From Bacteroidales bacterium (GTDB lineage Bacteria > Bacteroidota > Bacteroidia > Bacteroidales > Muribaculaceae), in assembly GCA_020859845.1 (NCBI GenBank), contig JAJBVL010000098.1, positions 1-39,426 of the forward strand: 39,426 nt of DNA, read 5' to 3'. The notes below the pieces were generated by a model that searched no databases, was not told the origin of the DNA, and saw only the letters and a list, made by a program, of their open reading frames with translations. Below are positions 30,179 through 39,191 of this stretch, in pieces. A program made the position numbers and the translations under genes. Position 1 is the first letter of the stretch, and the number at the start of each line of letters is the position of its first letter.

Positions 30179-33100
30179 GTGTCGCGCTCTTTGGCTCATA
30201 AGGTATTACGCTCGCTGCTCCACATCGTGCTCTGGACCATAGGCATCGTAGTGGGGCTGGTGGTGATTATTTTTGTGCTCCTCTACATCCCAGGAGTGCA
30301 GGAGTGGGCCAAGAATGTAGCTTTGGAGCAAGTCAACAAAGGCGATGGGATGAAGATTACCGTCGACAAGCTACATCTACGCTTCCCTCTACGACTATCC
30401 GTTGAGGGTGTCACCATACTGGAGGCTTCGGGCGACACTATGGTAAGGGTGCAAGACGCTGCTGTGGACCTGCGCGTGGCTCCCCTCTTCAAGGGGACCC
30501 TATCGGCCGGCGATATACAAGCCACCAACGCCATGTACCAGATGGGCAATCAAGACTCGGCCATGTGGATAATAGCCAAGGGACGCAAGGCATTGATCAC
30601 CGATGCCTCGATGGACCTCATCAATAGCCGAATACATGTGGACCACGCGCAACTCTCTGGAGGCGACGTGATGCTATGGATGGCCGACACCGTGACCCCA
30701 CCATCGACCGACACCACCGCTATCAAGCCACTCACCATCACAGCTCGCCTTATCGAACTCTCCGACGTGAGATATCGCATGTCGATGATGCCCACCATCG
30801 ACTCGCTTGGAGCCGACGTGCCACAAGCACGGCTGGTCGACGCGTTGGTCGACTTGGAGACGCGCCGCATCAAGGCGCGCTATCTGGCCGTGGATAGCGT
30901 CCGGGCCACCTATTTCACCCCCTCAGAGGCCTACCTTCAGGAGCATCCTCTAAGAGAGACCACCTCCGACACCATTCCCATCAATATGGCCGAGATGTGG
31001 ACCATCACGGCCGACTCAGTAAGGCTCACAGGCCAGCGCGCCATCTACGCCATGCGCGACGCCGAGCCTCAGCCGGGGCTCGACTTCTCATGGCTTGAAG
31101 CCAGCGACATTGATATAGCCGTAGACTCATTTTACAACTGCGGACCTACGATACGTGTACCCCTCAAGCGACTTGAGGCCACCGAGCGTTGCGGGATAGA
31201 GCTGGGCGCTACAGGCGTATTCTCTATCGATACAGCCTTTGTGATGCACGCCGATGGATTTAAGATCTACACACCCTTCTCCTCGTTGGATCTGCGACAA
31301 GCCACCATGGGCGCAGGTGACCTCACTACCGACCCTTCACTCCCCATCGCTTTAGAAGCCAGCGCCCGAATAGCGCAGCAGGATATGCGCCTAGCGTTTC
31401 CTGCCGTAGGACCGATGCTAAAGAATCTCACTCCAGCCACGGAACTCACACTCCAAGCCGACCTGGGAGGCACTTCAGGGTCGCTCGACATCCGCCAAAT
31501 TGCCATCAACCTTCCCCGTTATCTCGACTTCAAGGCCGATGGTCACGTAGACAACTTTGCCGATTTCGAGAACATTTCCGGCCTTATCAACCTCAACGGC
31601 ACGCCAAGCAACCTCAACTCCTTGAAACCCACTCTCCTCGATGCGCGCATGGCTAAAGAGATCAACCTTCCTCCTACCCGTCTGAGAGGACAAATCTCTT
31701 ATAGCCCTTCGCGCGCCGATGGACAGCTCACGGCCACCACTCCTCGAGGACATGTGGCCCTCAAGGCGGAGTGGTTCCAGAAAGCCGAGGGCTACGATGT
31801 GGCCCTTACCCTCGACTCGCTGGCTGTCGACGAGTTTATGCCCTCGTTGGGGATAGGTGGCATCACGGCCCACGCCACGGCCTCGGGGCAAGGCTACGAC
31901 CCATTCTCGCCGCGCACCCACGCTCAAGCCTCGGTGACTATTGACCGCGCAGTCGTCAATGGACGCACATACGTAGATGCCTCACTTGAGGCCCAGCTGG
32001 ATAGCTGCCGAGCCACGGGCAAGCTGAGTTCGTCAAATCCCAATGCCAACTTTCTCGTACACTTCGCTGCTGAGATGCTCCCCGACAAGGGATATCGCTG
32101 GGACGTAGACGGCGACATCTCCAACATCGACCTCCTGGCAATGAAACTCAGCGAAACGCCTCTCGACGGTTCGCTAAAACTCAACACCACCGGGACCATT
32201 TATCCAGCCACCAACGACATTGACGCACGCCTTACCATCACCGACCTCCGATGGCGCGTGGGAGAGGCTCGCCTCGAAGCTGACAGCATAAAGGGAGGAT
32301 TTCGCGCCTCCGATTCTACCCTCTTGGCGGGCATTCGCTCGGCCGATATGGGGGGATATGTCAGCGCCTACTGCTCGCTTGATAGCCTCCTGGCATGCCT
32401 GACAGCCACTACCGAAGAACTCGACTCGCAGATGGCCCATCGCAGCGTCGACATCCGTCGGCTGCAGCAAAGGATGCCACGCATGGACGCTGCGATTCGC
32501 GCCGGCAGCAATAACCTCCTCACCCAATTTCTGGCCACCGACAAGATGGGGTGGAGCCAGCTGAGGATGGAGTTTCACAACGATTCGCTCTTCCACTTTG
32601 GAGCTACGGCCCTCAACTTCTACACCGGCGACACGCGCCTCGACACTATCCAAATAGAGGCAATGCAGCATGGCAAATTCCTCGTCTACAAAGCCTCCGT
32701 CAACAATCGTCCTGGGACAATGGACAATTTTGCCTTCATAGGCGCCAATGGCTATCTGGCCGACGACAAGATGTCGCTGATGGTGCGCCAAAAGGATATC
32801 AACGGCAAGCTCGGCTTCCTGCTGGGTCTTAACACCACGGCTGCCGATAGCACCATCACCCTGCGCTTCGTGCCCTATACCCCCACGATAGGAGGCAAGC
32901 AATGGACAGTCAACAACGACAATCATATCACCTACAATTTCTACAACCAGCATCTCGACGCCAATCTGGCCATGACTACCGACAAGAGCTATATCAAGCT
33001 CTTCACGGAGCATGTGGAGGGTGGCGACTCGCTACAGGAGGATGTGGTGATGCAGATGGCCCATATCCAGCTTAAGGATTGGCTGTCCATCTCTCCCTTC

Positions 33101-34999
33101 GCTCCACCTATCAAGGGCGACCTCGGCGCCAATATGCGCTTCCGCTGGAATGAGCAGCAACTCACTGGCAAGGGTACAGTGGACCTCAACGACTTCTACT
33201 TTGGGCGCGAACGCGTTGGCTCCTTTACCCTCGGCGTAGACGTGGCCAACAAAGCCAATGGCACTCTCTATGCCGATGCATCCCTGCTCGTCGACAGCAT
33301 AAAGGTAATCACGGCGCGCGGTTCGCTTAACGACTCCACGGCTCTCCACCCGTTCAATCTCGACTTCTCGATGATCCACCTGCCGCTGCGCATCGTCAAC
33401 CCCTTCCTCCCCAAGGACGTGGCGAGGCTGAGCGGTGTGCTCAACGGCGAGATGGACATCACGGGGACCATGACAGAGCCCATCTTCAATGGCTATCTAG
33501 ACTTCGACACCACAAGCGTCAAGGTAGTGATGCTGGGGTCGTCGTTCAAGTTCTCGGAAGAGAAGATACCCGTGGATAGCAATGTGGTAAGTTTCAATGA
33601 TTTTACCATTGTTGGCGTAAACGATAGTGCCATCCATGTGAATGGCACCGTGGATGCCCGCCATATCACCGACATTGCCTGCGACCTCAAGCTCTCGGCC
33701 ACCGACTTCCAGATAGTCAACACTACGCGAGCACGCTCTGGTGCCGACGTATATGGCAAAGCCAACATCGACCTCGATGCCTCGGTGAAGGGCAACATGC
33801 AGATGATGATGGTCAATGCCCAGCTCGACGTTTTGCCCTCGACCAATGTCACCTACGTAATGGCCGACGCGGCCTCTACGCTCTCTTCACAGTCGACAGA
33901 AGGAATGGTCCACTTTGTCAACTTTGCCGACTCGGCGCAAGTGGCTGAGGCTGACACCATCGACACCCACACCATGACCATGCTCCTCAACGCCAAACTC
34001 AACGTGCAAGCAGGGTCAGTGATCAACGTTGACCTCCCCAACATCAGCCTCACGGGAAGCGCCGGCAATAATAAAGTGTCGATACAAGGCAGCGGCGAAC
34101 TCGACTACACTCAAAACCCCATGGACGATGGACGCCTCACAGGCCGCTTTAATATCAATGGTGGCTACGTGCGCTACACGCCCCCGGTAATGGGCGAAAA
34201 GGTGTTCAACTTCCAAGAAGGAAGCTACGTGGCCTTCAACGGCGACATGCTCAATCCCACCCTTAATATCCACGCCGTTGACAATCTCAAGGCCAACGTC
34301 ACCCAGGAGGGCCAAAACTCACGTATCATCGACTTTGAGATTACAGTGTCGATCACCAATACGCTTGAGAATATGAACGTGGCCTTCGACCTCTCCACCC
34401 CCGACGATATCACCGTAGAGAATGAGCTCACGTCGATGAGCCCCGACCAGCGAGCCAACCAGGCCATGAACCTCCTGCTCTACAACGTCTATACAGGCCC
34501 CTCCACCAAGGCCACGAGCAATCTCGCTGCCAACCCGCTCTATACATTCCTCGAGAGCCAACTCAACTCATGGGCAGCTAACAACATACGCGGCGTGGAC
34601 ATCTCGTTTGGCATCGACCAATACAATAAGACCACCGACGGCTACACGTCGCAAGCCACGAGCTACAGCTACAAGGTGTCGAAGAGCCTCTTTGACGACC
34701 GTATAAAGATTATCGTTGGAGGCAACTACACCACCGATGCCAACGCCGACGAGAACTTCTCACAGAACCTCATCAACGATATCTCGTTTGAATATATGTT
34801 AAACCACAGCGGCTCCATGTATCTGCGCGTCTTCCGCCACATAGGCTATGAGAGCATACTTGAGGGAGAGGTGACGCAGACGGGCGTGGGCTTCGTGGTG
34901 AAACGCCAACTCAACTCCCTGCGCGACCTCTTCAACTGGACAGATCGCCTACGCCGACGCGACAAAAAAGAAATAACCGAGGAAACACCTGCCGAATGA
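30179..34999 (+). CDS. tamB: Translocation and assembly module protein TamB
   Basis: The 1606-residue protein is an AsmA-like/TamB protein: one N-terminal membrane helix (about 15-38) holds it in the inner membrane and a very long repetitive beta-strand body crosses the periplasm. The C-terminal DUF490 domain (about 1150-1570) ends near an aromatic-rich segment and contacts the outer-membrane partner. TamB-type proteins form a lipid-conducting bridge or assist outer-membrane protein assembly. The start is GTG at 30179. Its stop overlaps the tamL start (ATGA), which fits formation of one complex. Neighbouring lptD agrees with an outer-membrane biogenesis block. Confidence 0.92.
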   Translation: MSRSLAHKVLRSLLHIVLWTIGIVVGLVVIIFVLLYIPGVQEWAKNVALEQVNKGDGMKITVDKLHLRFPLRLSVEGVTILEASGDTMVRVQDAAVDLRVAPLFKGTLSAGDIQATNAMYQMGNQDSAMWIIAKGRKALITDASMDLINSRIHVDHAQLSGGDVMLWMADTVTPPSTDTTAIKPLTITARLIELSDVRYRMSMMPTIDSLGADVPQARLVDALVDLETRRIKARYLAVDSVRATYFTPSEAYLQEHPLRETTSDTIPINMAEMWTITADSVRLTGQRAIYAMRDAEPQPGLDFSWLEASDIDIAVDSFYNCGPTIRVPLKRLEATERCGIELGATGVFSIDTAFVMHADGFKIYTPFSSLDLRQATMGAGDLTTDPSLPIALEASARIAQQDMRLAFPAVGPMLKNLTPATELTLQADLGGTSGSLDIRQIAINLPRYLDFKADGHVDNFADFENISGLINLNGTPSNLNSLKPTLLDARMAKEINLPPTRLRGQISYSPSRADGQLTATTPRGHVALKAEWFQKAEGYDVALTLDSLAVDEFMPSLGIGGITAHATASGQGYDPFSPRTHAQASVTIDRAVVNGRTYVDASLEAQLDSCRATGKLSSSNPNANFLVHFAAEMLPDKGYRWDVDGDISNIDLLAMKLSETPLDGSLKLNTTGTIYPATNDIDARLTITDLRWRVGEARLEADSIKGGFRASDSTLLAGIRSADMGGYVSAYCSLDSLLACLTATTEELDSQMAHRSVDIRRLQQRMPRMDAAIRAGSNNLLTQFLATDKMGWSQLRMEFHNDSLFHFGATALNFYTGDTRLDTIQIEAMQHGKFLVYKASVNNRPGTMDNFAFIGANGYLADDKMSLMVRQKDINGKLGFLLGLNTTAADSTITLRFVPYTPTIGGKQWTVNNDNHITYNFYNQHLDANLAMTTDKSYIKLFTEHVEGGDSLQEDVVMQMAHIQLKDWLSISPFAPPIKGDLGANMRFRWNEQQLTGKGTVDLNDFYFGRERVGSFTLGVDVANKANGTLYADASLLVDSIKVITARGSLNDSTALHPFNLDFSMIHLPLRIVNPFLPKDVARLSGVLNGEMDITGTMTEPIFNGYLDFDTTSVKVVMLGSSFKFSEEKIPVDSNVVSFNDFTIVGVNDSAIHVNGTVDARHITDIACDLKLSATDFQIVNTTRARSGADVYGKANIDLDASVKGNMQMMMVNAQLDVLPSTNVTYVMADAASTLSSQSTEGMVHFVNFADSAQVAEADTIDTHTMTMLLNAKLNVQAGSVINVDLPNISLTGSAGNNKVSIQGSGELDYTQNPMDDGRLTGRFNINGGYVRYTPPVMGEKVFNFQEGSYVAFNGDMLNPTLNIHAVDNLKANVTQEGQNSRIIDFEITVSITNTLENMNVAFDLSTPDDITVENELTSMSPDQRANQAMNLLLYNVYTGPSTKATSNLAANPLYTFLESQLNSWAANNIRGVDISFGIDQYNKTTDGYTSQATSYSYKVSKSLFDDRIKIIVGGNYTTDANADENFSQNLINDISFEYMLNHSGSMYLRVFRHIGYESILEGEVTQTGVGFVVKRQLNSLRDLFNWTDRLRRRDKKEITEETPAE

Positions 35000-37317
35000 C
35001 CCTCCACAATCATCATATACCCATCTGCGCCTTTCGCTTGACGATTGTAACGGCTCTACTGCTAATGCTAGGCGCCTGCTCCACTACCCGACGCATCCCC
35101 GCCGACGAGATGCTGTATACAGGCGTGAAGGCTGTCGACATATCCCATCCCGATAGTCTAAAGTTGGCCCCAGGGCTGGAGGATGCCTTGAAAAGTGCGG
35201 TCAATGTGGCTCCCAACAATCCCATGCCGCTCTTCTCGCCCTACATGCGCACACCGCTACCTATCGGCCTGTGGGTCTACAACAACTGGAACAATCCACC
35301 TCATGGATTCAAGCATTGGCTGTATGAGAAACTCGTGAGCGAACCGGTGTTGATAAGCGACGTTCGCCCCGAAGTGCGCACCAAGATGATGGACGAGATA
35401 CTCGACAACAATGGCTACTTCCGTGGCACAGCCTCCTACGAGCTCATTCAGGGACGCAACAAGAAGAAAGCACGCATACTCTACACCGTCAACACGGGGC
35501 CCGAGTATACGATCGACTCAATACAGCTGCTCCCCGACACGTGTCGCCTCTATCATCTTATCGACTCGGTGGCGCGCCGCTCCACCTACCTGCAGCCTGG
35601 CGCACGCTACTGCACCGACTCCTTGAGCGCCGAGCGTATACGTGTGGCCAATGCCCTGCGCAATCGTGGCTACTACTTCTTCAAGCCCGACTATATAGAA
35701 TATCTGGCCGACAGCACCATCAAGCCGCTGAATATTGCCATGCGACTGACGGTGGCCAAAAACATACCAGATTACGCACTTGATTCGTACACTACTGGCA
35801 CCATCACCACTCGCATCTATCGCAATCAAGGCAACGGCACTCCCGACACCACCTACACCAACCGCGGAATGATAATACGCATGCTCCCCTCGCGCTTGCG
35901 CGAAGGGCTGATACCCAGTTGCATCACCTTCCGCGAGGGCCGTACCTTCTCCGTGCGCAACATGGACCGTACCCAGACCTACCTCTCGCGTCTGGGCATC
36001 TTCAACGGCATCGATATCAACGTCTACCCCGACTCGTCGAAACACCGAGTGCTCAACGTCGACATATCCTGCACCTTCGATGCCCCACTGGAGGCATCGC
36101 TTGAGGTGAATGTCACCTCCAAGTCAAACAGTTATCTTGGGCCGGGACTGATGTTTGGATTGACCAATCGCAACCTTTTTGGTGGCGGCGAGCAATTGAC
36201 CTTCAATCTCACTGGGAGCTATGAATGGCAGACGGGACGTCAGCGCAAGGGCTCGGTGCTCAACAGCTATGAGATAGGATTTACGAGCACTTTGGCCTTC
36301 CCCCGTCTCCTCATCCCTGGCCTCAACCGATGGATATCGCGCTCGCGCCGTCAGCTCAACTGGACCCGCATAGCCCTCAATATCGACCTGCTCAACCGCC
36401 CTCATTACTTCCGCATGGCGCAGTTTAACGCCTCACTCAACTACGACTGGCGCCAAAGCAAGTATATAAGCAGCACCCTCACCCTCTTCAAGCTCACGTA
36501 CACCAACTTGATGAGGACCACTGCCGAGTTTGACTCCATCATGGAGGCCAACCAAGCTATTGCTCTCAGTTTCCGCAGCCAATTTATCCCCCAGATAGCC
36601 TACAGCCTTACCTACGACCGCATGTTTGACCCCGACAACGGCATCAACTGGCAGCTCACCCTCCAAGAAGCTGGCAATATCATCGACCTGCTGTGGGGCG
36701 TAGGCGGCAAGAAAGGCGAGAAGACACTATTTGGCACGCCCTTCTCCCAATTTATCAAGGGGAAGACACAGCTGGTCTACAATCGTCGGCTCTATGGCGA
36801 CCATTGGCTTGTGAGCCGTGTGGCTGTCGGCGCTGCCCATGCCTATGGCAATGCCTCGCAGGTGCCTTACAGCGAGCAGTTCTACGTGGGTGGTGCCAAC
36901 TCTATTCGTGCTTATACCGTGCGCAGTGTGGGTCCTGGCAGTTACAAGGTACCAGAGAATCTTGTCAATGGCTATTTCGACCAGACGGGTACATTCCTCT
37001 TCGAGTTTAACGTGGAGTATCGTTTCCCACTGGTAAGCATCCTCCACGGGGCAGTGTTCTTTGACTCAGGCAACGTATGGCTACTCAAAAATGACCCACA
37101 GCGACCTGGAGGCAAACTCGAAGGGAAATCCTTCTTCAAAGACCTTGCCACTGGCACGGGCGTAGGTCTGCGCGTTGACATAGGTATGATGGTAATCCGC
37201 GGCGACTTGGGTATTGGCATCCACCTACCCTACGACACTGGCAAACGAGGTTACTACAACATGACCTCCTTCCGCCATTCTCTGGCCTTCCACCTTGCCA
37301 TCGGTTACCCATTCTAA
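34996..37317 (+). CDS. tamL: BamA/TamA-family outer-membrane lipoprotein (TamL)
   Basis: The 773-residue protein has a lipoprotein signal (LLLMLGACS, lipidated C28), POTRA-like domains (about 110-370; NTGPEYTIDSIQLLPDT and EGRTFSVRNMDRTQTYLSRLGIF are typical) and a C-terminal 16-stranded Omp85 barrel (about 380-773). GTGVGLRVDIGMMVIRGDLG is the conserved late barrel segment, and the protein ends in YPF, a terminal aromatic. The lipid anchor distinguishes TamL of Bacteroidota from TamA. It overlaps tamB by 4 bp and is its likely partner. Confidence 0.92.
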   Translation: MTLHNHHIPICAFRLTIVTALLLMLGACSTTRRIPADEMLYTGVKAVDISHPDSLKLAPGLEDALKSAVNVAPNNPMPLFSPYMRTPLPIGLWVYNNWNNPPHGFKHWLYEKLVSEPVLISDVRPEVRTKMMDEILDNNGYFRGTASYELIQGRNKKKARILYTVNTGPEYTIDSIQLLPDTCRLYHLIDSVARRSTYLQPGARYCTDSLSAERIRVANALRNRGYYFFKPDYIEYLADSTIKPLNIAMRLTVAKNIPDYALDSYTTGTITTRIYRNQGNGTPDTTYTNRGMIIRMLPSRLREGLIPSCITFREGRTFSVRNMDRTQTYLSRLGIFNGIDINVYPDSSKHRVLNVDISCTFDAPLEASLEVNVTSKSNSYLGPGLMFGLTNRNLFGGGEQLTFNLTGSYEWQTGRQRKGSVLNSYEIGFTSTLAFPRLLIPGLNRWISRSRRQLNWTRIALNIDLLNRPHYFRMAQFNASLNYDWRQSKYISSTLTLFKLTYTNLMRTTAEFDSIMEANQAIALSFRSQFIPQIAYSLTYDRMFDPDNGINWQLTLQEAGNIIDLLWGVGGKKGEKTLFGTPFSQFIKGKTQLVYNRRLYGDHWLVSRVAVGAAHAYGNASQVPYSEQFYVGGANSIRAYTVRSVGPGSYKVPENLVNGYFDQTGTFLFEFNVEYRFPLVSILHGAVFFDSGNVWLLKNDPQRPGGKLEGKSFFKDLATGTGVGLRVDIGMMVIRGDLGIGIHLPYDTGKRGYYNMTSFRHSLAFHLAIGYPF

Positions 37318-37355: not shown

Positions 37356-37383
37356 AAAGGCCATTTTGTAAGATTTGGCCTTT
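37356..37383. promoter_or_regulatory. Inverted repeat upstream of the sigma/barrel gene
   Basis: AAAGGCCA (37356-37363) / TGGCCTTT (37376-37383), 12-nt spacer. It may be the tamL terminator (TTTCT follows) or an operator of the sigma gene. TTTG 37365-37368, 20 bp, TATCTTAG 37389-37396 is a near-consensus promoter overlapping it. Confidence 0.5.
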
Positions 37384-37385
37384 CT

Positions 37386-37408
37386 CCATATCTTAGAAAT
37401 AGATATGG
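37386..37408. promoter_or_regulatory. Inverted repeat enclosing the sigma gene start codon
   Basis: CCATATCT (37386-37393) / AGATATGG (37401-37408), loop 7 nt. The ATG (37405-37407) is inside the right arm, so an mRNA hairpin would hide it; as DNA it overlaps the putative -7 box and could be an operator. Confidence 0.6.
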
Positions 37409-37683
37409 AAACCAACGATGTCCAAAAAACAGAACTAATAGAGCGCTGCCAACGAGGCGACATCACCGCCTTAGGCTCATTATATACCACGTATCGCCGA
37501 CCTATGATAAGGGTCATCAAGCGCTATGTGGCCGACACCGCTATGATTGAAGATATCCTCCACGATGGTTTCTTCATCATTTTCAAGCAGATAGATCGCT
37601 TGCACGACTACAGTCACTTGGAGACCTGGATGGCCTCCATAATGAAGAACCTTGCGCTTAAGGCCCTGGCGGACCCAGCGTAG
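37405..37683 (+). CDS. ECF sigma factor region 2 (front fragment of frameshifted sigma/barrel gene)
   Basis: The 92-residue product starts at the ATG at 37405; the upstream TTG at 37375 is not a likely start. It contains sigma-70 region 2: LGSLYTTYRRPMIRVIKRYV, then IEDILHDGFFIIFKQIDRL (core-binding helix and -10 recognition region) and LETWMASIMKNLALKAL. It stops at a TAG (37681-37683) where region 2 ends. Region 4 continues in the -1 frame without any other stop, with an acidic linker of about 20 residues typical for the region 2-4 junction. One additional C in the CCC run at 37674-37676 would fuse both frames exactly. I infer one gene, 37405-39191, of about 595 residues when intact. Confidence 0.85.
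   Translation: METNDVQKTELIERCQRGDITALGSLYTTYRRPMIRVIKRYVADTAMIEDILHDGFFIIFKQIDRLHDYSHLETWMASIMKNLALKALADPA
37672..37683 (+). other. Apparent one-base deletion between sigma regions 2 and 4
   Basis: The frame in use reads GAC CCA GCG TAG. With one more C it would read GAC CCC AGC GTA GAG and continue (DPSVEEALSEEDEE) into region 4. The context is not a classical X_XXY_YYZ slippery heptamer, so mutation or assembly error is favoured over programmed frameshifting. Confidence 0.75.
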
Positions 37684-37742
37684 AGGAGGCTCTCAGCGAA
37701 GAGGATGAAGAAGCTGAGGAGGAAAGCGAAGAGCCCATCAGC

Positions 37743-39191
37743 ATGGAGGAACTCCAGACCCTCATATCCCAGCTGCCAGAGAAATATCAAAACGTCTTTC
37801 GTCTGGCAGTGCTCGAAGGTCTCAGTCACAAGGAGATTAGTCAGATGCTTGGCATCACCTCCTCCAGCTCTGCAACTCAGCTCTCACGCGCCAAGGGACG
37901 CCTGCGCCAACTCTTCTTGCAATATCAGCTGGGGCTCGGCGTGGCTGGATTGCTCTTTATCGCTGGTGGAGCGCTCTATCTCACATGGCGCCCCCATTTC
38001 CAGCGCTCCAACGTTGCCGGGCCTATCGCGTCACTCCCCATCCAGAATTCCTTAAATGCTTTACTTCAAGATACAGTCAATAAGCCTAATATCGACCTTG
38101 AAACTTCTCCTTCCGCTCCCCCACAGGCAGCGCCAACAGCTCTGGGCAGACAGACTGGCGCTCCTGTGGCACCAGCGGTCGTGACGCGTCAAGCGCCAGC
38201 GCTTGTTGCCTTGGCTATCCCCGACCGGCAGTTAGGATGGTCAGTGGTAGTGATACCCGCCAAGTTGTCGCTTTGGGACTTGCCACCTCATGCCACCACA
38301 CAGACTTCTCCAGCTGAGATAGACCCCTTGCTGGATCCTGTAGCTGAATACGAAGCCCTTAAGAAGGATACTCCATCGTCTCCCGATTCTATCACTCCCA
38401 AGCCTCGCTATGACGAGGAGCCGCTCGTAGCCCACTGGGGAGAGCCACTCTACCGTCTACCCTCGGCGCGCTCCGCGAGCAAGTGGGCCATGACTCTCTC
38501 CACCAACCTTAGCGCCGTTGCGGGTGCTGACAAAGATTTGGATCTACGTGATGATATCAACGCATCTCTTCCCCCAGATAGGCCAAGTGATGGGCCTTCC
38601 AATCCCTCCGACCCCACAAATCCATCCAATCCCTCTGATCTCTCTGATCCTTCTCAGGCAGTCCGATCCTCCCAGTCAATGCCTATGGCGGGAGAGCCTA
38701 TGGCAGTTTATGACACGGAGCAGAAGGAGCCTATCGTGGTCAGCGTACGCTTTGCCCACGAGATAGCGCCTAAGATTTCGCTCGAAGTAGGGGTTCAATA
38801 TACCCTTTTGCGTTCCACTCAGTGGTGGCAGGCCGACAAACGTTATGGGAAGACGGATCTTGACGTATCTTATCTGGGCGTCACAGTGGCTGGCCGTTAC
38901 GACTGGTTTACCGCGCCCCACTGGCGACTGTCAACCCCCATAGGCACCTCCATCGACTTTCCCATAGCCACCTCTATGAAGGGCGACCATCCCGAGAAGT
39001 CATATCATGCTCCAGTCCAAGTGGGTTTCTTCGGCGGAGTCAGTCTGGAATATCGCTTCAACTCCAATGTGGGCTTGTTCATAGAGCCACAGGTCAACTA
39101 CCACCTTGACCGCCACTCTACCTTCAAGCTCCTCTGGCAAGACAAATCCACCTCCTTCACCCTCCCCATCGGCATCCGTTTCTCCTGGTAA
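37743..39191 (+). CDS. Sigma region 4 fused to transmembrane helix and outer-membrane beta-barrel
   Basis: From the ATG at 37743 the product has 482 residues; the frame is open upstream to 37662 and probably belongs to the preceding sigma fragment. Residues 1-58 are sigma region 4 (LPEKYQNVFRLAVLEGLSH, helix-turn-helix EISQMLGITSSSSATQLSRAKGRL). Residues 63-81 are a membrane helix (LGLGVAGLLFIAGGALYLTW). A Pro/Ala-rich linker (82-245) could cross the periplasm. From about 246 to the terminal W lie eight alternating beta-strands, an OmpA/PorT-like barrel with a C-terminal aromatic. Between strands 1 and 2 is a low-complexity loop (NPSD-type, about 277-305). The layout recalls the dual membrane-spanning anti-sigma (Dma) proteins of Bacteroides, but here the sigma factor itself is attached. 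The barrel call is structural, from strand pattern only. Confidence 0.85.
   Translation: MEELQTLISQLPEKYQNVFRLAVLEGLSHKEISQMLGITSSSSATQLSRAKGRLRQLFLQYQLGLGVAGLLFIAGGALYLTWRPHFQRSNVAGPIASLPIQNSLNALLQDTVNKPNIDLETSPSAPPQAAPTALGRQTGAPVAPAVVTRQAPALVALAIPDRQLGWSVVVIPAKLSLWDLPPHATTQTSPAEIDPLLDPVAEYEALKKDTPSSPDSITPKPRYDEEPLVAHWGEPLYRLPSARSASKWAMTLSTNLSAVAGADKDLDLRDDINASLPPDRPSDGPSNPSDPTNPSNPSDLSDPSQAVRSSQSMPMAGEPMAVYDTEQKEPIVVSVRFAHEIAPKISLEVGVQYTLLRSTQWWQADKRYGKTDLDVSYLGVTVAGRYDWFTAPHWRLSTPIGTSIDFPIATSMKGDHPEKSYHAPVQVGFFGGVSLEYRFNSNVGLFIEPQVNYHLDRHSTFKLLWQDKSTSFTLPIGIRFSW
38601..38658 (+). repeat. Degenerate NPSD-encoding repeat in barrel loop
   Basis: Imperfect repeats of AATCCCTCCGAC-type units encode NPSDPTNPSNPSDLSDPS, in the loop predicted to be extracellular. 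Period multiples of three keep the frame. Confidence 0.6.

Follow-up and report, generated by a model that had tools for sequence, protein, structure and literature searches.

A probable frame-split relative of Dma3-type sigma factor–barrel fusions in Bacteroidales, and a promoter-like element beside many one-frame fusions

The end of the DNA discussed here (the window, i.e., the whole analysed stretch of 39,426 nucleotides from a Bacteroidales bacterium) raises the question of whether an ECF sigma factor can be carried in the same polypeptide as a membrane helix and an outer-membrane barrel and, if so, what such a chain would do. A sequence-only reading of the window had listed sigma region 2, an acidic linker, region 4, a helix, a Pro-rich stretch and a barrel ending in W, all placed in one gene for a joined 595-residue protein. 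Each of these parts is present, and the single gene is absent: positions 37405–39191 comprise 1787 bases, which is not divisible by 3; frame A ends with a stop at 37683; and region 4 through to the barrel is encoded in the −1 frame (frame B), whose last stop is a TAA at 37659 and which is open only from 37662.

The frame-split locus in the window

The features of the locus and of its upstream neighbours are as follows.

30179–34999, + strand: probable TamB (NF047952, E 7.6e-13, 47 bits, far under the cut-off of 825)
34996–37317, + strand: TamL, an outer-membrane assembly lipoprotein (NCBIfam NF052279, 745 bits, cut-off 400)
37405–37683, + strand: frame A, ECF sigma region 2, 92 aa, stop TAG at 37681–37683 (Pfam Sigma70_r2, E 3.3e-11)
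37662–37683, + strand: interval of the required −1 frame change (or of one base lost or misassembled), GGCCCTGGCGGACCCAGCGTAG
37680–37742, + strand: acidic linker between regions 2 and 4, frame B, VEEALSEEDEEAEEESEEPIS
37746–37904, + strand: sigma region 4 with helix-turn-helix, frame B (Sigma70_r4_2, E 5.6e-16, residues 2–54 of the ORF from ATG 37743)
37929–37985, + strand: predicted inner-membrane helix, 7 residues past the region 4 motif (Kyte–Doolittle 1.88)
37986–38483, + strand: disordered tether, presumably periplasmic, about 166 aa (pLDDT <50, ORF residues 86–244)
38484–39188, + strand: predicted outer-membrane barrel, about 8 strands, C-terminal W (structure model; weak Pfam OMP_b-brl_2 match)

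Sigma and barrel thus lie in different frames, and for this reason the window copy is filed as a frame-split relative and not as an intact member of the fusions described below. Programmed −1 frameshifting is judged unlikely, since GGCCCTGGCGGACCCAGCGTAG, the sole interval permitting a join, contains no in-frame slippery heptamer of the form X XXY YYZ when read by eye. The pieces nevertheless comprise both ECF sigma regions, though in different frames, as well as the predicted helix, the disordered tether and the C-terminal barrel, with the helix and the first barrel strand at modest pLDDT. The motif DILHDGF in frame A is common to the one-frame relatives, and the best NCBIfam matches of the sigma part are general sigma models.

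In the structure model of the window ORF, a helix is placed at residues 44–86 (block pLDDT 53–79). In a separate model, confidence is low for both region 4 and the membrane helix (block pLDDT 41–61), which counts against the mechanism proposed below. The model of the window ORF agrees with the earlier claim of a barrel of about eight strands with a C-terminal W; the long linker claimed with it is perhaps shorter. An uncertain first strand is predicted at residues 248–258 (about 38484–38516, pLDDT 61–66), in a stretch that aligns with a segment common to the intact relatives. If this strand is real, the Pro/Ser/Asp-rich repeat that follows it (at about 38580–38660) would be part of the first barrel loop and lie outside the tether, and the tether may be shorter than had been implied. 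Upon structure comparison, many barrels obtained near-equal scores; hence, the predicted domain is assigned only as a “small outer-membrane barrel”.

Upstream, the last 4 bp of the probable tamB are also the first 4 of tamL, and 87 bp separate the end of tamL from the region 2 frame, so that outer-membrane assembly genes (30179–37317) adjoin a sigma factor linked to the outer membrane; tamL is counted here as a neighbour and not as a part of the system, and the arrangement with tamL upstream was not seen in 13 fusion loci whose neighbours were read by eye. The 11-mer AAGGCCATTTT occurs at 37357 and 39292, flanking the split gene, which may be due to chance or reflect a diverged paired element. 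A general scan of the split gene for promoters and terminators gave values near the shuffled mean. The contig ends 235 bases past the split gene.

One-frame fusions and two-gene pairs in the Bacteroidales

A first contig scan with the tail of the window as query found no relative. When 34 genomes of the same genus were searched with the second piece, three others (G009, G017, and G020) were found to encode the sigma regions and the barrel in one frame of 517–520 residues. A profile built from these three fusions was used to scan 397 genomes of the family, with three candidates scored per genome so that all counts are lower bounds. Both its ends matched within one open frame at no fewer than 67 places in at least 64 genomes, and at no fewer than 65 places in at least 63 genomes when internal stops were disallowed. 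The looser count (sigma start matched, open frame of at least 480) amounted to at least 97 places in at least 87 of the 397 genomes. Named records in 84,980 species genomes, a set which overlaps the same-family set, contained 134 relatives, and the 80 best were retained. At 74 of these 80 loci, the frame runs without a break from region 2 through to the C-terminal end. The remaining six comprise three at contig ends (L076, L135, and L138) and three with lesions at different places—a stop near the start in L066, and broken frames in L090 and L091. Hosts of the fusions include Muribaculaceae, Paramuribaculum, Duncaniella, Prevotella, Segatella copri, Hallella, Xylanibacter and Paraprevotella, and also Bacteroides faecis, B. 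salyersiae and B. caecigallinarum. Two records titled Staphylococcus sp. and Roseburia sp. (L092 and L114) carry Bacteroidales-type fusions and are probably mislabelled metagenome bins. In the order-wide sample of 119 genomes, seven gave a match with an E-value of 1e-45 or lower, namely one with a full fusion (G496), one with a frame-split fusion (G448), and five whose single-domain matches are two-gene pairs. In G448 (L141/L147), the fusion is split just past the membrane helix, and its second frame contains a further stop.

Sigma and barrel are, hence, found in one polypeptide in the relatives and not in the window. Sigma70_r2, Sigma70_r4_2 and OMP_b-brl_2 were matched in 22/22 aligned members; regions 2 and 4 share one frame in all 81 full fusions, and the C-terminal residue is W in 67 and F in seven of these 81. 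Over 19 compared pairs with an identity of at most 0.92 (pairs share sequences), dN/dS was 0.06–0.30 for the sigma part, 0.06–0.21 for the barrel (2/19 saturated) and 0.16–0.43 for helix plus tether; barrel values above 1 for L089/L132 and L129/L132 derive from a dS of 0.02, and six further pairs at an identity of at least 0.93 carry little dN/dS information. The low values at both ends indicate that both the DNA-binding end and the barrel are kept. An assembly artefact is ruled out as the origin of the fusion because 74/80 loci are open throughout and both ends are under purifying selection, and, as judged from these sequences, the sigma-helix-barrel architecture in one chain is real in the relatives. 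The search for sigma and barrel in one ORF across the Bacteroidales, which the earlier reading had proposed, has returned one-frame fusions in many gut members of the order. Its idea that the sigma factor itself is tied to both membranes gains from the single open frames in many genomes; it does not extend to the window, where the copy is split.

Besides the fusions, the genus, family and order of the window yielded 22 two-gene pairs (32 rows, less eight duplicates and the two rows of the split G448 fusion); in these, a helix-tether-barrel frame comes shortly after a sigma frame, with both on one strand. Trees of 91 rows each were calculated for the sigma part and the barrel part by a quick method without bootstrap, containing 68 of the 81 fusions left after thinning of near-copies, i.e., 69 with the window pieces. 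One branch divides the 69 fusions from the 22 pairs in both trees, with SH-aLRT values of 100 (sigma) and 99 (barrel). The simplest reading of both trees would be one fusion event; as fusion profiles served to find the fusions, and pair profiles some of the pairs, intermediate forms may have been missed. The earlier reading had named, as an outcome that would speak against it, homologues consistently made of two ORFs, with a stop separating region 4 from the helix. This is not what the sample contains, as one-frame fusions are abundant and the two-gene forms stand across a single branch.

The two forms differ ahead of the helix. In the fusions, the gap from the region 4 motif to the helix has a median of 7 residues and a range of 1–11 (71/81 measured, the ten fusions without the motif string being omitted), and the window has a gap of 7 residues as well. 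All 22 two-gene partners possess a stretch ahead of the helix, with a median of 50 residues (start codon picked by script) and a common pattern of W, then P..LW..IE. According to the Dma layout described in the portion of PMC13088901 available, this pre-helix part of the two-gene membrane protein is the anti-sigma part. On the sequence level, the fusions are thus without a separate anti-sigma part, as the earlier reading had proposed: the approximately 50 pre-helix residues of the two-gene partners are missing. Furthermore, sigma- or anti-sigma-like genes were absent from the ten neighbour groups (groups of at least four loci) found at 77 fusion loci, counting up to three ORFs of at least 90 residues per side; an anti-sigma gene of fewer than 90 residues would escape this count.

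Several neighbours of these genes may be recorded here. The two-gene pairs L009, L010 and L012 are preceded by a secreted protein, which we take to be NigD-like. A small lipoprotein family occurs near eight fusions (L095, L097, L099, L108, L115, L118, L127, and L137), six of which also have a radical SAM protein nearby; the L097 examples match TIGR04134 (lipo_with_rSAM) and TIGR04133 above cut-offs. At 17 loci (L131, L065, L093, and L094 among them), the fusion is followed by another radical SAM gene, behind which lies a gene for a Gfo/Idh-like oxidoreductase.

A promoter-like element beside the fusion genes

The element TGCAGTCTTTT-N11-CATCTAT, or a close form of it, was found upstream of 15 compared fusions, all but L039, typically ending about 20 nt ahead of the start. 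It was counted over 83 unique fusions (two of them partial, and with frame B of the window included) under a fixed criterion of three mismatches in all, at most 150 nt upstream of the start or at most 100 nt downstream of the stop. Under this criterion, the element is present upstream in 30/83, downstream in 36/83, at either place in 43/83 and at both in 23/83 fusions, compared with 0/1660 mononucleotide-shuffled upstreams; a looser form occurs at either place in 57/83 fusions and in 1/1660 shuffled upstreams. Since the element is absent from 40/83 fusions by the first criterion and from 26/83 by the looser one, one promoter does not cover the family.

A whole-genome search, with one mismatch allowed, covered 34 chosen genomes—17 with fusions of the best-matching branch, 16 without a fusion match (best profile match no better than 3.3e-19), and the window's own. 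Sites were found in 16 of the 17 chosen fusion genomes; the genome of the window and all 16 of those without a fusion match have none, and a reversed-pattern control gave no site in the 34 genomes. All 30 sites are on the same contig as a fusion and 29 of them are within 300 nt of the fusion gene: 16 at most 300 nt upstream, 13 at most 100 nt downstream, and one, the only site of G235, 2,196 nt downstream. The fusion genome without a site at one mismatch (G017) has, at its locus L078, a copy with two mismatches. Occurrence by chance is ruled out by the shuffled-upstream, genome-wide and reversed-pattern results. At L103, a perfect copy lies about 3.8 kb upstream of the fusion, as a possible distant target.

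The genes after the 36 downstream elements, their kinds being assigned by short motifs, are radical SAM genes (12), genes for a lipoprotein which we presume to be CotH-like (11), methyltransferase genes (8), and others (5). NCBIfam matches of one radical SAM and one methyltransferase example were below cut-offs, and the CotH-like example had none. In 26/36 cases, the downstream element is situated 26–44 nt before the ATG picked by script, as for a promoter.

By its sequence, the layout of the elements matches that of an ECF sigma factor controlling its own gene and one target next to it, and we infer that the fused sigma factor itself reads the element. That the element might instead be the target of another regulator, the fused sigma factor aside, is improbable in our estimation. 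A similar element does occur about 50 nt upstream of 2/22 paired sigma genes (L146 and L156; in the looser scan, pairs L007, L159 and L160 had at most 100 nt of upstream sequence and the spacing range missed the L146 element), and the 26 fusions without any element also speak for such a regulator. However, among the 34 chosen genomes, the element is confined to those with fusions, on the contig of the fusion, and its two-part form and spacing recall an ECF promoter, for which such a form and spacing are characteristic.

These observations also bear on the nature of the window copy, which has no element (the best match has 6 mismatches) and whose pieces group with the fusions on long branches (0.97 in the sigma tree and 1.77 in the barrel tree). 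We regard it as a frame-split relative of the widespread Dma3-type fusion that is probably defective or misassembled. We give a little less than an even chance to the possibility that the window gene is in reality an intact Dma3-type fusion, its split being due to an indel from assembly or sequencing: the gene has one lesion only, the remaining 509-residue frame is open, third-position GC is alike in both halves (0.64 and 0.59), the frame-change interval contains many short runs of G and of C, and the source is a 112-contig assembly. Against this, the long branches together with the absent promoter element suit a copy on which constraint is weaker or of another kind, and sporadic lesions occur in other copies, too (L066, L090, L091, and G448). 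Bacillus SigO/RsoA is a split sigma factor acting in trans, and, by analogy, the window could encode a natural split sigma, with a free region 2 peptide and a tethered region 4. Both pieces retain conserved motifs and the region 4 piece comes with its own ATG (37743), yet no homologue with the same split was seen, the lesions of other copies fall elsewhere, and the single frame for regions 2 and 4 in the 81 full fusions points the other way; we hold this reading to be very improbable.

Proposed mechanism and relation to known systems

The explanation that we favour as a whole, and to which we give somewhat better than even chances, is that the window contains a split relative of a Dma3-type protein in which a sigma factor held at the membrane is freed to transcribe its own gene and the next operon. 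The barrel would be anchored in the outer membrane, the tether would cross the periplasm, and the helix would keep the sigma factor on the cytoplasmic side of the inner membrane, so that the tie to both membranes is the likely hold on the sigma factor in one-frame members; because the fusions have no inhibitory part, location is the likely brake. A ligand at the barrel loops, failed barrel assembly, or loss of the hold of the outer membrane could serve as the trigger, upon which the tether would be exposed to proteases and the sigma factor released or unmasked, with cleavage in or close to the inner membrane as the most likely route. In one large branch, the freed sigma factor would then act on its own gene and the next operon via the shared ECF-type promoter TGCAGTCTTTT-N11-CATCTAT. 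The sequences themselves show the architecture and its conservation, the position of the fusions on a single side of both trees, the loss of the pre-helix residues and the paired elements; the membrane topology, the signal at the barrel and the proteolytic release we infer.

A sigma factor that is active while membrane-bound, with barrel and tether setting its access to RNA polymerase and no cleavage taking place, is a rather unlikely alternative. ToxR and CadC are regulators acting from the membrane and set a precedent, and the fusions have no anti-sigma part that would need to be removed. On the other hand, only about 7 residues between region 4 and the helix would leave little room for the holoenzyme at a promoter, and the fused sigma factor that has been studied, IutY, is activated by proteolysis, according to the sections of PMC8999054 available.

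Going beyond release of the sigma factor, the fusions would be complete one-protein trans-envelope switches with a regulon of self plus next operon, portable before unrelated cargo—a reading to which we assign even chances. If it holds, sensor barrel, tether and sigma factor are united in one chain without an anti-sigma part and with a matched promoter pair, and the same switch placed before radical SAM, CotH-like lipoprotein and methyltransferase genes amounts to a portable outer-membrane-to-DNA module. Surface-to-gene signalling in Gram-negative bacteria usually passes through several proteins in turn; if one chain connects the sigma factor with an outer-membrane barrel, the relay would be about as short as it can be. 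The promoter-like element offers a direct and cheap handle on the control targets, and on a reporter-based search for the signal in common gut bacteria.

The closest known system is Dma3 of Bacteroides thetaiotaomicron. In the portion of Pardue et al. 2026 available (PMC13088901), Dma3 is stated to have its own sigma factor as an N-terminal domain, which is credited to a 2024 PNAS paper, further citations of which appear in the accessible text of PMC12045153 and PMC12596196. The architecture is therefore not new, and Dma3 is the one reported member of the sigma-barrel fusions. By its published description (PMC13088901, in part), it resembles the fusions in its layout of helix, disordered tether and barrel with an own sigma factor, whereas the window copy is split in two frames. 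The same portion reports that the dma3 locus (bt_2778-2779) is induced in both dma1 and dma2 mutants, that dma3 deletion did not reverse the vesicle profiles of these mutants, and that very little is known about Dma3.

The two-gene Dma system follows, as far as the available descriptions go, the same plan of helix, tether and barrel as the fusions, but its sigma factor is a separate ECF protein and its membrane protein has about 50 residues before the helix. Pairs of such a layout, named Das/Dma by layout alone, occur in the same genus, family and order, and the 22 sampled pairs stand apart from the fusions in both trees. Joining of an ECF sigma factor to a membrane-spanning C-terminal extension is also a feature of IutY of Pseudomonas putida (ECF243), which has a fused anti-sigma part and is activated by Prc and RseP cleavage, and of ECF48/52/53 proteins such as SCO4117, which are described with a fused anti-sigma (PMC8999054, sections available). 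In these sections, a fused anti-sigma part and no outer-membrane barrel are named for IutY and ECF48/52/53, while the reverse applies to the fusions; an IutY-type anti-sigma part between sigma and helix is absent from both the fusions and the window. More generally, C-terminal extensions occur in many ECF groups (PMC8103513, in part), and a class I anti-sigma gene is nearby for only 6% of Bacteroidetes ECF sigma factors (PMC7406223, in part). Set against these systems, the missing approximately 50 pre-helix residues and the paired element are what is apparently new about the fusions among open-licence papers.
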